Assembly (NCBI GenBank): GCA_017506865.1
Contig: JAFCMP010000135.1
Location: 1,207,170 to 1,271,169, forward strand
Direction: 5' to 3'
DNA: 64,000 nt
Source of the DNA: Tribonema minus
Taxonomy: Eukaryota; Sar; Xanthophyceae; Tribonematales; Tribonemataceae
Of this stretch, positions 1,813 to 7,136 are shown piece by piece. The notes under the pieces were generated by a model, which did not search any database, was not told the origin of the DNA, and was given only the letters and a program-made list of their open reading frames with translations. The position numbers and the translations under genes were made by a program. Position 1 is the first letter of the stretch, and each line of letters starts with the position of its first letter.

Positions 1813-2518
1813 CTGCGACATATAAAAAAATGTGCCACTGGTTGAGTCAGACAGGGGGGGCAGCCAGGTTTTCATGCAAGGATCCGCAGCGAAAAGCGCT
1901 CAAAGGCCAGTACAGGAATGTGGCAGCGTACACAACACAATGATGCAGCAGTTGCACGTGAGCATGCACTGCAAGGAGGGTGCACCAGCGAGGAAGGTCA
2001 GCTAGTCAGCAGCCAGCTGCTCGCTCTCATGAGGGACGCAAATCTTGACAACGCAACGGTCATTGTCCAGCAATTTATTTACAAGTAAATACGTGCCAAC
2101 TTGAAACAGTCAGGTGAGTTTCATGTGGGGACCTTCATGAAAACCGGTTGCAACTTGCTGGACACTGGCGCATCATGAGGCGTACTTGATTTGAAAAAAA
2201 AAAATGCTGATGGGGCGCCGCCTGCATTGTCATTAGTGACTGGAGTTCGCAAAATTGTCAAGTGCTTTTTTTTTTTTTGCGAGTGGGGTTGCAGACAAAA
2301 TTGTATGGCAGGCTGAATATGACTTGAGAGTTCATGGTCACCACAGCACACAATTTACATGCAGCATAGATAACATCACGGCCAAGTTATCAAGAAAGGA
2401 GGGGACGTGGTAATGGACGCACAAATGAAGACACCTAAATGCGCATGGCGATGGCTGACCTTGTGGTGCTCACACTACATGCACCGTGATAGCAGATGGC
2501 TGTTCTTTGAGGAAGGGT
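1813..2518. other. Non-coding spacer or 5' introns of the left gene
   Basis: No supported gene. Because the exon at 1206-1812 starts in mid-codon, a 5' exon of that gene probably lies here or the stretch is its intron. Two opposite homopolymer runs occur (A tract near 2195, T tract near 2268). Confidence 0.4.
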
Positions 2519-2534
2519 GGTGTATAGATACACC
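2519..2534 (-). terminator. Histone mRNA 3' stem-loop of H2A
   Basis: On the minus strand the sequence reads GGTGTA-TCTA-TACACC: a perfect 6-bp stem with a 4-nt loop, followed directly by ACCC, starting 70 nt beyond the H2A stop codon. This is the geometry of the replication-dependent histone mRNA 3' element (GG/CC stem base, UYUN loop, ACCCA-type flank). The H2B gene has the same structure with a different stem but the same loop and flank, so the stems covary. A processing role (SLBP binding, cleavage without polyadenylation) is inferred from the known element. Confidence 0.8.
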
Positions 2535-2603
2535 AGTGTTTTGTTGCAGTGCACCGAAAGAGGCACAGCTGCACCGCACGCAAACTTCACTGCAGTAGAG
2601 CGT

Positions 2604-3725
2604 TTACTTGGCCTTGGCGGCGCTGGCGGTCTTCTTGGGGAGGAGGACAGCGTGGATGTTGGGGAGCACACCACCAGAGGCGATGGTCACATTGCCCAGC
2701 AGCTTGTTCAGCTCCTCGTCGTTGCGCACCTGCACGGTGGAGGGGGGGGGAGAGAAGCAACCATGAGTGCATGCATTTGACAGCACGAGAATGCATGGGA
2801 ATCGGTGGCATGTGACATGCACAATAAACACGAGTGCTCCAGTAGACGGTGCACAGTTTTCTCTTATACACAAGGACAAGCGGTACAGCTAAGCAGCAAA
2901 CAAAGGACTTGGTGGCCCATTGAATGCACACCCAACTACTGTAGAAGCGGTGATGACGTACATGGCACGCCACAGCAACATGGACGCAAGCCAGCATATC
3001 AAGACAACAGAAACACTCATGTCGCTGCTCAATGCAAATGCAAATCGTACACCGAACACAGGCCACTCACCGCGAGCTGGATGTGGCGCGGTACAATACG
3101 GGACTTCTTGTTGTCGCGGGCGGCGTTGCCAGCGAGCTCCAAGATCTCAGCGCACAGGTACTCGAGCACCGCCGCCAGGTAGACGGGGGCGCCCGCTCCC
3201 ACGCGCTCGGCGTAGCGGCCCACCTTCAGGAAGCGGCCCAGACGGGCCACGGGGAACTGCAGCCCAGCTGTTGTGCAGGTGGGCAAGGCAGGCGAAGAGG
3301 ACGAGGTGAGAGGGCGGTACTTACTTGCACAAGTCAAGGCGGTGAAGGCACGTTGCAGAGCCAGAAAAATGTTGCAGAGCTGGAGACTAGGGCTATGTCG
3401 GGCAATGAATGGCACGACAAAGCAGCCAAGAGGGGGGATGCTACCTGTGAGGCTTACGCTAAGGTTTAGCTGTCAACTGCCAAATGGGTACGACAAAGCC
3501 ACGGAGGATCTGCAAGAGTAGCAACGGCGACTTTGAAGAACCTGCACGCTGCTGCAAGGAAATCTATTCAGGCTACGCCGCCGTCAACATCGCATGGACA
3601 CCTTCCAAACTGTCAAAGCGGCATGATGTGTTTTGATCACCAGACGATGTGTGCTCACCCTTGGAAGACTTGGACGTGCTCTTCTTGGCCTCCGCGCCAC
3701 GGCCGCCCTTTCCTTTGCCAGCCAT
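2604..3725 (-). CDS. H2A: Histone H2A (three exons)
   Basis: Core nucleosome histone H2A, which dimerises with H2B. Exons are 3725-3659, 3267-3071 and 2729-2604, spliced GGGTGAGC...AACAG and GCG|GTGAGT...TGCAG, giving 129 residues from ATG at 3723-3725 to TAA at 2604-2606. The histone fold is intact: [15 protein letters not shown], then [15 protein letters not shown], then [10 protein letters not shown] and [15 protein letters not shown]. The tail is a short Ala/Lys end with no SQ(E/D)Φ motif and no SPKK repeats, so this looks like a canonical H2A rather than H2A.X. It is divergent to H2B 527 bp away and carries a 3' stem-loop. Having introns together with the stem-loop is unlike animal replication-dependent genes. 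Confidence 0.97.
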
Positions 3726-4252
3726 TGTTGTTGAGAGGGGTGTTGTTTACCTTAGAGAGGTAGCGTGTGTCTGTGTGGAATGCGGCACAGAGACCTTCAG
3801 AGTTTACACTAGTTTGGTGATGATGCTCAGCTGGGTGTATTCTCGATTCTGCATCGTGATTGGTCAGATGCCCAGAATACTGGTGCGGTGATGATCAGCG
3901 ATTTTCCAGGCTTGGCCTCCCTGTCACATCGCCACTCACACACCGCCTGGACAACACCAACCTAAAAGTGAGTGCGCAGAGCGAGCTGGCGTGTGGTGTG
4001 GCCTTGCTGAGTTTGGTGGCGCTCGGCTCTCTGGACTTGATTTTTCGTTTCTCATTGTTCCGTAGCTGTGGTGTATTGAGTAGTGTCTGCTCACGGTGGT
4101 ATCTGAGATGGTACAGCAGCTTTTTGTAGGCATAGCATCGCCGCTAGATACACTGCCGTTGCATCGCCATTGCCTGCGCGATCGCATACCTTTGTTCCCC
4201 TTCTTCCGCCAACCACCAACTGACTTTTTTCTACATGTTGTGCTTTTACCAG
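3726..4252. promoter_or_regulatory. Bidirectional H2A-H2B promoter region
   Basis: The 527 bp between the two start codons must carry both promoters. An inverted CCAAT box (attgg, 3859-3863; CCAAT in the H2A direction, about 134 bp before its ATG) is visible. No convincing TATA box was seen. A pyrimidine-rich tract ending ttttaccag abuts the H2B ATG, so H2B may also have a 5'-UTR intron that would shift its promoter leftward. Confidence 0.6.
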
Positions 4253-4609
4253 ATGGCGAAGATCCCCAGCAAGAAGGCCGCCAAGGCTCCGAAGAAGGCA
4301 GCGGATGGCAAGAAGAAGAAGGCCAAGCGCACTGAGTCCTACGGCTCGTACATCTACAAGGTGCTCAAGCAGGTGCACCCCGACACCGGCATCAGCAAGA
4401 GGGGCATGTCCATCATGAACTCGTTCATCAACGACGTGTTCGAGCGCATCGCCTCCGAGGCCGGCAAGCTCACCCGCTACAACAAGAAGTCCACCCTCTC
4501 CTCCCGCGAGATCCAGACTGCCGTCCGTCTGATGCTTCCCGGAGAGCTCGCCAAGCACGCCGTCAGCGAGGGCACCAAGGCGGTCACCAAGTTCACCTCC
4601 TCGGCCTAA
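4253..4609 (+). CDS. H2B: Histone H2B
   Basis: Single-exon histone H2B of 118 residues, ATG at 4253 to TAA at 4609. A short Lys/Ala-rich N-terminal tail ([20 protein letters not shown]) leads into a highly conserved fold: [54 protein letters not shown] and a final [11 protein letters not shown], with the Lys ubiquitinated in other eukaryotes in place. An in-frame upstream ATG at 4241 is not chosen because MAKIPSKK is the normal start and the preceding tttaccag resembles a splice acceptor. Paired head to head with H2A. Confidence 0.97.
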
Positions 4610-4720
4610 GCGACACCGCAGCGGCGCAGCAGCTTGGCGGGAGCAGTGGCGGGCGCTGGGGCAGCTTACTCTGGTACCTCAGCGCGTCCGCTTGCGCACT
4701 CCAGCCTTGCACAAACAACT

Positions 4721-4736
4721 GGTATCTCTAGATACC
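4721..4736 (+). terminator. Histone mRNA 3' stem-loop of H2B
   Basis: GGTATC-TCTA-GATACC forms a perfect 6-bp stem with loop TCTA, followed by ACCCC, starting 112 nt after the H2B stop. Loop and 3' flank match the H2A element at 2519-2534 while four of six stem pairs differ, which is the compensatory pattern expected of a functional hairpin. Confidence 0.82.
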
Positions 4737-7136
4737 ACCCCTGCGCACAGGAAATGCCCACAGCGCCATCTGTACTTTCTCTCTTTTAAGATTGTCTTGC
4801 AGCAATGTTTGTGCAGAATAAGTTTGGGTAGATCACATATGCAGTCCTTGTGAAAGTCAGGCTTCTCTTCATATGCAGTTCTGCTGGTTTGTAGTCTTGT
4901 GAGCGTGCAGGTGCAGCAGTTAGCATAAATTCTTGTGTCTGTTGTGTTGACATGGTTCTTTTTGTGTCAGGACGCTGCATATGGTTTGTACTACAATGCT
5001 TGTGACGGTCATTGCATGCGTCTCATCTCTTTTCGGTTCATGCACCAACGTCTACCTGTCAGCACGCAACTGCTGTATGCACTTGTAACTCTCCTTGATT
5101 CATGCGGTGTGGCGTTGATGTTGACATGGCATTCTGCGGCTTTTGCTATTGAAATTGCAATTTGCAGCTTGAAGCTTGTTCTCGTTGCGAGTTTGCGTGC
5201 GCAGAGGCGATGCTCTGTGATGCCAGTAATGCGCTGCACATGTGCCTTCAAGCTTAGGGAACTGCAGCTGTCAGTGTCTGTGCTTTACTTTGTCAGTGTC
5301 CGTGCTGCGTTTCAATGCTACAGCACAAGAGTGAGGCATGAAACAAAATATGCTTGCATTAATTTGGCAGGCAGTATCGTACTCAGAGCATGCAAAGCAG
5401 TGTCGTCAATCATGGGGGAGCAGCGAGTAGAGGGAGTGAGAGTGAGTAAGGGAGTGAGCAGGATCTGAGAGGTGCTCACGGCACTTACGGCTAACCCTAG
5501 TTGCCAATCAGCTAACCCTAAGGTTGAGTTAGGTCAGATCCAGCTAAGTCCTTGCATGTGGGGGCAAATGAAGCAGGTCTCACACGTGAATGTAGACTTC
5601 AAGTTACTGGTGCATAGACTCACGGTCAAAACAGTGGCCCATCGCTCTGCTGCTTCGCTGTTGCCGCCCTGCTGCAGTGCAGGCGTGCTTCTCGTTCCTT
5701 GATGTCAGTACCGGCCTTGCGCTTTCTTGGCCGTTGCTGCCACATCATCGTCTGATGGCAGGACTTCCTTGCTGCTGCATTGTTTGATGCCGTGCCCTGC
5801 TGTTCTCGTGATCGTGATGCGATGCAGCTGTTTCTTGCACGAACTCTCGCAGACGCTGCACGCCACGCATCAGAATTAGTGCGCTTGTGGTGCACAAGGT
5901 GGTTTCCTCTTCTTTGGGCATGCTTTCATAGCGCTTCCACCACCGCGCGCCCTCCCCCAGCTCGCTCCCAACCACCGTTCAAAAAAAGTTGAAGTTCGAG
6001 TTCAAGTTGAATACAAACTTCACGTAGGTCTTACATCAACTTCAACCCCAAGCCGGGAGTGCCGGGAGTGAGTGGGATGCGGGGTCCTCAAGGGGGAGCA
6101 CGGGAGTGTGAGGTTCAGAGTGCAGTGTTTTTTAATAAACAACACTGATCAAAGCAGCGGTGTATGCTGAAAAAAATGCACGACTACACACCTCAAATAC
6201 TTTCTGTTTGTGCCCTGTCTCCATTGCGCACCAGCTCTGAACATGCCTTTGGCACAAACGTTTAACCAGCAATTACTACTACTTGCCAATTAGCTTCACG
6301 TTGCAAACAGTTGGCCACATTCTGCATGACATCACAACAGCCGACAATGAGCGCAGCACAGGATAAGTGCAGTGTCAAGTTTGTCAGACGTTTTTTATTG
6401 AGCGCTCGTAAAGAAGCGCACGCACCGCTTTGCGGGAGTGCTGTTTTGTGCCCAACATGCCTGTTAGGCGCGCACATAAAACCCGATCAGGGTATATGTA
6501 TGTACAAACGTACACTATCTGCTGATGCAAGTAGCTGCCCTGCGTGTCTGCATGGGGCTTGCTACAGCAGCACTTCTGAAGCCCTCTCTGTGTTGTGTCT
6601 TTGGCGTGCACAATATCCATATGGTGCTAGGTGCGTGTAAAACGCACCCCATTTTGCATTTGTGACAATACAGTAGAACCCACTGCCTCGTCAATTGTGT
6701 ATGTAGTTCCTAGGTGCCCCGCATTTCCTCTCAATTCTTGAAGTTTGACATCAGTGCTCAGAAAGCACACCCCTGACGTTCATGCGTGCCTGCGGTGCGC
6801 TCACAATTGCTTGGCGCACACGCGGTCGCTGAACAGATCTGCATCAAGTGGCTGAAACACAAGCCCATCTAACTGCGGAGGCTTGGAAGTCATCGTCGTC
6901 GTCGTTGGCTTCGATTGTAGCTGTTTCAATGCACTGAAATGCAGGCCAGCCTATGCTACCAGTAGTGTGTGGTCTGACAACGCGGGAGGCCCCTTACATG
7001 CGCCGCAATCAGCAAAGCTGCACAAAACCCCTTCTCTCCATGAGGGTTGACTGACACTTCAAGTCTGGAAGACAGCGTTCGCGCGCACGCTGACCCCCCC
7101 CCCATTTCCCCCCTGCGCACGTCGGGCTCAGACCCC
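4737..7136. other. Intergenic region between H2B and DIS3L2 3' end
   Basis: About 2.4 kb with no supported gene. A 177-codon open frame (4935-5468, plus) has no family resemblance and poor codon bias, so I treat it as chance. Near 5996-6050 there are several copies of a TTGAAGTT-type motif that recurs in introns across the window. TTACA at 6994-6998 gives TGTAA on the minus strand about 140 nt after the DIS3L2 stop, which is the usual chlorophyte polyadenylation signal, but a 5-mer is weak evidence. Confidence 0.5.

Follow-up and report, generated by a model that had tools for sequence, protein, structure and literature searches.

The window analysed here, a stretch of 64,000 nucleotides of Tribonema minus DNA, is the end of contig C135 in a 158-Mb genome. 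It contains a divergent pair of histone genes at positions 2604–4609, each followed by a short hairpin, and the question raised by this locus is whether the hairpins are 3'-end signals of replication-dependent histone mRNAs that are processed without polyadenylation. As judged by the sequence, they very probably are.

The H2A/H2B pair and its two hairpins

The H2A gene lies on the minus strand and includes introns (2604..3725 from the start codon; exon limits are approximate). The H2B gene, identified by direct reading and by profile and protein searches, is a single exon for 118 amino acids on the plus strand (4253..4609). Two hairpins with a 6-bp stem, a 4-nt loop and an ACCC flank had been proposed for this pair, and both were borne out at their coordinates by direct reading and folding. 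The H2A stem-loop, GGTGTA-TCTA-TACACC, occupies 2519..2534 of the minus strand, and its ACCC 3' flank is at 2515..2518 of the same strand, with cleavage expected just 3' of ACCC. The H2B stem-loop, GGTATC-TCTA-GATACC, is found at 4721..4736 of the plus strand and is followed directly by ACCC (4737..4740, plus). Model R1, which included both hairpins among its training sequences, gave them 56.4 and 63.7 bits, respectively. The distance from the stop codon is short, as claimed, though the exact values of 70 and 112 nt had to be corrected, there being 69 nt (H2A) and 111 nt (H2B) between stop codon and stem.

Compared with 200 dinucleotide shuffles each, the folds had z values of −3.17 for the H2A hairpin and −3.89 for the H2B hairpin, and equally good folds occurred in two and one of the shuffles, respectively. 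The predicted fold adds a seventh pair, U-A, between the T preceding GG and the A of ACCC. Further downstream, a putative histone downstream element was recognised behind each gene: AAAGAACAGCC at 2498..2508 of the minus strand, with GAA 13 nt past the H2A stem, and GGAAATGCC at 4750..4758 of the plus strand, with GAA 14 nt past the H2B stem. The 3' flanks of two H2B genes of C135 are near-identical, and the two H2A/H2B pairs on this contig look like recent duplicates.

Recurrence of the hairpin and its distribution among histone genes

A strict hairpin pattern that put no constraint on the closing pair had 51 matches in the whole 158-Mb genome, as compared with 1 for the reversed control pattern; hence the hairpin is not a product of chance. 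Pairing is fully Watson-Crick in 43 of these matches, includes a wobble in 3 and a mismatch in 5. The closing pair is AT in 23, TA in 16, GC in 3, CG in 3 and TG in 1, and is unpaired in 5. Histone genes precede 21 of the hairpins (20 core genes and one H1-like gene), a repeat module described below precedes 11, and by these criteria the other 19 were assigned to neither.

In the 20 hairpins of core histone genes, 120 of 120 cells are paired and 10 cells are changed on both sides. Their covariation score, calculated with rows that include some recent duplicates, was equalled by none of 500 shuffles. The claim that the stems differ by compensatory pairs is upheld by this score, but only two of the six pairs covary, namely pair 4 (GC/AU) and the closing pair (AU/CG/GC/UA); one pair changes on one side and three are invariant. 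The number of covarying pairs is not above that in the shuffles, 161 of 500 of which reach it, and neither is the count of pair types (229 of 500).

The second base of the stem (G7) is G in all 20 histone hairpins. Histone stem-loops follow a loop rule with U at the first and third positions, and the stated fit to the UYUN rule was borne out at these two, the first U being present in 20 and the third in 19 of the 20. The ACCC flank is likewise found in 20 of 20, having served as a search criterion for most of them. On the 5' side, T adjoins the stem in all 20 hairpins and is preceded by C in 18.

From profile and protein searches of the genome came 52 matches to core histones, counted by exon, and 29 to H4; 45 and 16 of these, respectively, were followed. 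The resulting 61 rows include 59 with 3' sequence; C112:1387884 and C445, the 3' sequence of which falls outside the stretch, were excluded. Neither these two loci nor the 13 H4 places left unfollowed have a match of the strict pattern nearby. A hairpin with ACCC was found behind five H3 (one a frame-broken copy), five H2B, five H4, four H2A (one H2A.X-like) and one H2A.Z-like gene, which makes 20 core histone genes. In the 14 H3, H2B and H4 genes with the final exon read intact, it lies 49–135 nt from the stop codon. The hairpin also follows a gene with an H1-like tail (C1:1792766), at 69 nt from its stop codon, and one with a 5-nt loop follows a further H2A gene (C55). At C52 and C536, H3 and H4 genes are divergent neighbours.

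No such hairpin was found behind the virus-like histone genes read on C223, C144, C278, C9, C12, C445 and C112, the H3 and H4 genes on C4 and C112, or the centromere-type H3 genes. The same holds for six cellular-looking genes (the C122 H2A, one H2A.X, one H2A.Z, an intron-bearing H2B, an H3.3-like gene and another H3 variant), the gene labels throughout having been assigned by eye, except for two fusions confirmed by Pfam. Relaxed scans of part of the hairpin-less loci revealed scattered chance-like hairpins only, and a search of virus-like and variant histone loci with model R1 gave nothing at E≤1, save the H2B beside the C122 H2A. The outcome named as a refutation of the original prediction, other histone genes without the hairpin, thus applies in part: such genes are present among the centromere-type H3s and among the virus-like and cellular-looking histones, alongside the 20 core genes that carry it. 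This pattern of presence and absence fits a division into genes with stem-loop mRNAs and genes with polyadenylated mRNAs, as far as can be predicted from the genes themselves.

For the H2A.Z-like (L047 and L046) and H2A.X-like (L052 and L051) genes, one copy has the stem-loop and one lacks it, as though each variant existed in both a replication-dependent and a replacement form. The C122 H2A gene (L035) has GCGCCA-TATC-TGGCGC followed by ACTG 3' of its stop codon, which may be a diverged copy of the stem-loop.

The virus-like histone loci (C223 at 0.46–1.01 Mb, C144, C278, C9, C12, C112 and C445; L023-L031, L037, L055-L057 and L063-L068) include an H3 fused to a Ulp1-type C48 protease domain and an H2B-H2A fusion, both recognised by Pfam, as well as H4s with long C-terminal extensions and H4 fusions. 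The gene content suggests that they represent a large endogenous viral region. A comparison of the H2B-H2A fusion with IMG/VR gave 10 pattern matches, none of which was a relative by tblastn.

SLBP, the downstream element and proposed mRNA processing

The SLBP gene that was sought in the assembly is present as a single match (C10:399275, 87 bits) with a canonical RNA-binding domain. This predicted domain scores 92 bits in Pfam and 75 bits against the highest-scoring SLBP chain of solved structure, and the alignment keeps the Arg of YS(R/K)R, LH.WDPP and the TPN motif (TPNP for TPNK). In the known SLBP, G7, the second G of the stem, is read by Arg181 (PMC10388802). The aligned Arg is kept in the predicted protein, residue 181 being placed by counting from Thr171 of the TPNK motif. 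Since the second stem G and this Arg are both kept, changes in the spelling of the stem would not require an SLBP tolerant of other stem pairs, which had been suggested. The minimal human site also includes two adenines 5' of the stem (PMC10388802), which are regarded here as characteristic of the human site rather than as a defining feature.

The Rfam Histone3 model (RF00032) gave no match in the window, nor on the two hairpins when applied to 101-base stretches at E≤10. Its gathering score of 34 bits was reached by none of the 75 candidates scored genome-wide; the model scores the non-histone copies best, the highest value of 31.7 bits, below the cut-off, belonging to one of them. The Rfam Histone3 candidates L014-L017 showed no match to model R1 at E≤1, and thus part of the Rfam candidate list may be due to chance. 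The hairpins of L015 differ in flank or loop. The real departures from the known signal are the 5' flank, with C-T for adenines, and the spelling, which goes unreported by Rfam Histone3. The original prediction that this lineage has its own variant of the histone processing signal gains support from the recurrence of the hairpin behind H1-like, H2A, H2A.X, H2A.Z, H2B, H3 and H4 genes, from the SLBP gene and from the failure of the Rfam model on the window hairpins.

A purine-rich core, approximately GAAAT(N)GCC, starts 12–15 nt past the stem in 17 of the 20 histone hairpins. The first element pattern matched 13 of the 20, as compared with a mean of 2.85 and a maximum of 9 in shuffles, a result that is not a test, as the pattern was derived from the same sequences. 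A rule demanding GAA at 12–15 nt was written after L069-L074 and before the letters of L080-L094 were seen. The latter are 15 further hairpins, out of 20 that were still unread at that point, and had been fetched by the hairpin pattern alone. Thirteen of the 15 pass, the failures being L081 (GAA at 16) and L086 (CAA). With a chance of about 5% each, the binomial tail would be about 1e-15 if the hairpins were independent, a value that is too strong since several are related copies. Pooling of these 15 with seven previously seen hairpins gives 19 of 22.

The position of this element is that of the animal histone downstream element (HDE), the target of U7. In C. elegans, a positioned AATCC element behind the hairpins is called no more than a possible HDE (PMC1924863). 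On the basis of position, composition and the analogous C. elegans element, GAAAT(N)GCC is read here as a putative HDE.

In the proposed mechanism, SLBP would bind the stem-loop in the pre-mRNA, and a second factor, by analogy with animals a U7-type snRNP, would recognise the GAAAT(N)GCC element. An endonuclease, which by analogy may be CPSF73, would then cut a few nucleotides past the stem to give a non-polyadenylated mRNA that ends in the stem-loop and about ACCC. The parts of this scheme that were established directly are the hairpins, their covariation, their genome-wide association with histone genes, the SLBP gene and the positioned downstream element.

A variant of this mechanism, compatible with it, is a stem-loop/SLBP system without U7, in which a protein, or an unrelated RNA that pairs with the element, would do the reading. 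This is a serious possibility, albeit on balance doubtful. It is in keeping with the C. elegans element being no more firmly assigned than as a possible HDE (PMC1924863), and with the outcome of the U7 search, from which no candidate was accepted. The Rfam U7 model had no match at E≤10, and a pattern combining the complement of the element with an Sm site gave 19 matches, as compared with 10 in the reversed control. However, one exact pattern and one Rfam model make a weak search, and the spacing and purine core of the element match those of an HDE. The genome includes 15 LSM-domain matches, without assignment to Lsm10 or Lsm11.

Five stretches, covering 6 of the 19 matches, were examined, and the U7 candidates were set aside as unproven, the pattern being hardly above its control. 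In L076 a hairpin is possible after an Sm-like site, and L077-L079 have no such layout. A pair on C368 (L075, C368:352500-353400) consists of perfect complements of the element, but it lies in a tandem repeat, the sister units of which lack them, and was rejected. This repeat contains TTAGGG-type stretches, and the occurrence of the two complements beside AATTTGT was judged a coincidence.

That the hairpins are instead conserved palindromes of another kind (a terminator, a DNA-binding site or a relic of gene conversion) behind polyadenylated histone mRNAs is favoured by the recent-looking duplicates on C135, but is hardly credible given that H1-like, H2A, H2B, H3 and H4 genes share the hairpin, ACCC and the spaced element, with compensatory changes, and that an SLBP gene is present.

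The probable histone 3'-end signal resembles the metazoan stem-loop (RF00032)/SLBP system in the 6-bp stem with its GG/CC base, the 4-nt loop with U as its first and third base, the ACCC flank, the short distance from the stop codon, the SLBP gene and the downstream element. It differs in the stem, GGTGTA or GGTATC here and GGCTCT in animals, in the loop, which is mostly TCTA, in C-T rather than adenines adjoining the stem, in the introns of H2A and in hairpins that are not reported by the Rfam model. Histone stem-loops and SLBPs of protists, outside animals, were reportedly described by Davila Lopez and Samuelsson in 2008, and the combination of hairpin and SLBP found here is like these. Divergent H2A/H2B pairs are shared with Chlamydomonas, most histone transcripts of which are non-polyadenylated (PMC8226298). 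A paper on Giardia histones, as far as consulted, reports no such hairpin in that species (PMC1872034). Stem-loop and SLBP outside animals are already known; the present variant would be new in its spelling and in the positioned downstream element. Here stem-loop, SLBP and positioned element occur together across a genome, with a signal spelled very differently from that of animals. Such an example can help to identify the old parts of the signal, and is a place to seek U7 or its substitute.

A ribozyme-like module and the non-histone hairpins

The repeat module was found at 158 places in the genome (≤3 mismatches), as compared with 0 for the reversed pattern. Eleven of the 51 strict hairpins lie 104–545 nt downstream of a module on the same strand, and all 12 of the 12 module-hairpin pairs within 1.5 kb share that strand and order. 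Among the 100 module places listed of the 158, 11 are followed by a strict hairpin at no more than 1.5 kb, the same one in two cases, and 89 are not; the link between module and hairpin was demonstrated for a minority of copies.

Seven flanked copies (L010, L013, L015, L069, L071, L072 and L074) defined the fold of the module, which comprises a 7-bp P1, a 5–6-bp P2, a 3-bp P3 with the 7-nt loop UUGNYGY, a P4 hairpin and C-N-A-A-G before P2'. The element order P1-P2-P3-L3-P3'-P1'-P4-J4/2-P2' is present in all seven. P1 and P3 consist of standard pairs throughout, and P2 has 6 of 6 pairs in six modules and 5 of 6 in L074; compensatory changes between copies affect P1 and the inner pair of P2. 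C-N-A-A-G in J4/2, conserved in 7/7, includes a candidate catalytic C, as judged by sequence. HDV-like ribozymes have characteristic details of L3 and a sequence rule for J4/2, and their P1 mostly starts with G; the first base of P1 is C in all seven modules.

In these seven copies the module folds like an HDV-type self-cleaving ribozyme, and it may be one. The HDV-like ribozymes of the R2 and L1Tc/ingi retrotransposons form a nested double pseudoknot (PMC3774820, PMC4908430, PMC4035085). The module shares with them this pseudoknot, a 7-bp P1 adjoining P3 and the candidate catalytic C in J4/2. In contrast to them, it matches no Rfam HDV-type model (module copies, E≤0.5 and E≤10), has no recognised protein gene beside it in the short flanks read, and is linked to a histone-type stem-loop. 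A generic descriptor, the ranges of which were chosen after the modules were seen, found six of the seven (L074 was missed) and nothing else in 360,842 fetched, partly overlapping bases. On shuffled sequence it gave 1 match in 800,604 bases.

Over some 900 nt on the upstream side of the hairpin, copies L010, L013 and L015 share 70–85% identity. For L069 and L072 the value is 71% over 804 nt, and L071 has only short shared stretches. The non-histone copies were rejected as protein genes, the L010/L015 and L010/L013 alignments showing many non-triplet indels and no consistent codon-position bias. Positions 640–879 of L010/L015 favour one codon position (11 of 18 changes), a lean that L013 does not repeat. 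Pfam gave nothing over cut-off for five frames of L012, and the Rfam families in the non-histone copies were limited to Histone3 below its cut-off and to chance-level matches. The histone signal thus appears to be common to a non-histone, apparently non-coding family.

It is put forward tentatively, as a proposal with somewhat less than even prospects, that the histone 3'-end machinery is not histone-specific here, a ribozyme-bearing non-coding family having acquired (or donated) the stem-loop and downstream element. The RNAs of this family would then receive one end from the ribozyme and the other from SLBP-directed cleavage, would lack a cap, a poly(A) tail or both, and would possibly be tied to S phase. 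This would provide a mobile or regulatory RNA with a means to couple itself to DNA replication and, if the ribozyme link holds, would break the rule that the histone-type 3' end belongs to histone mRNAs. A full-text literature search, with most subscription papers outside its scope, found no published link of a self-cleaving ribozyme with SLBP. Among the papers listed from the same literature, no histone stem-loop on a non-histone or non-coding RNA was found by title and beginning of the abstract.

The non-histone copies could alternatively be decayed fragments of histone genes. Such an origin is suggested by the H3-type TATC loop of C7:9617 and by C551:133940, a second hairpin 345 nt behind that of an H2B gene. 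Among the 19 hairpins with neither a histone gene nor a strict module, L074 has a module with a one-base deletion, C551:133940 trails the H2B, and for L012 and L070 the reading extended about 1.5 and 0.7 kb upstream. The other 15 were read as 71-base stretches (12) or as the match alone (3), which leaves room for a fragment origin. Against decay stand the eleven hairpins located downstream of a module on the same strand, the uniform order of the 12 pairs, and two pairwise comparisons in which no reading frame is kept. An origin from histone genes is thus improbable.

Tandem copies of the stem-loop were observed at three loci. The two hairpins of the C551 H2B gene (L034) are at 1415 and 1760 of the minus strand, and model R1 located further copies at 787, 881 and 970 of L069 (plus) and at 35 and 128 of L072 (minus).
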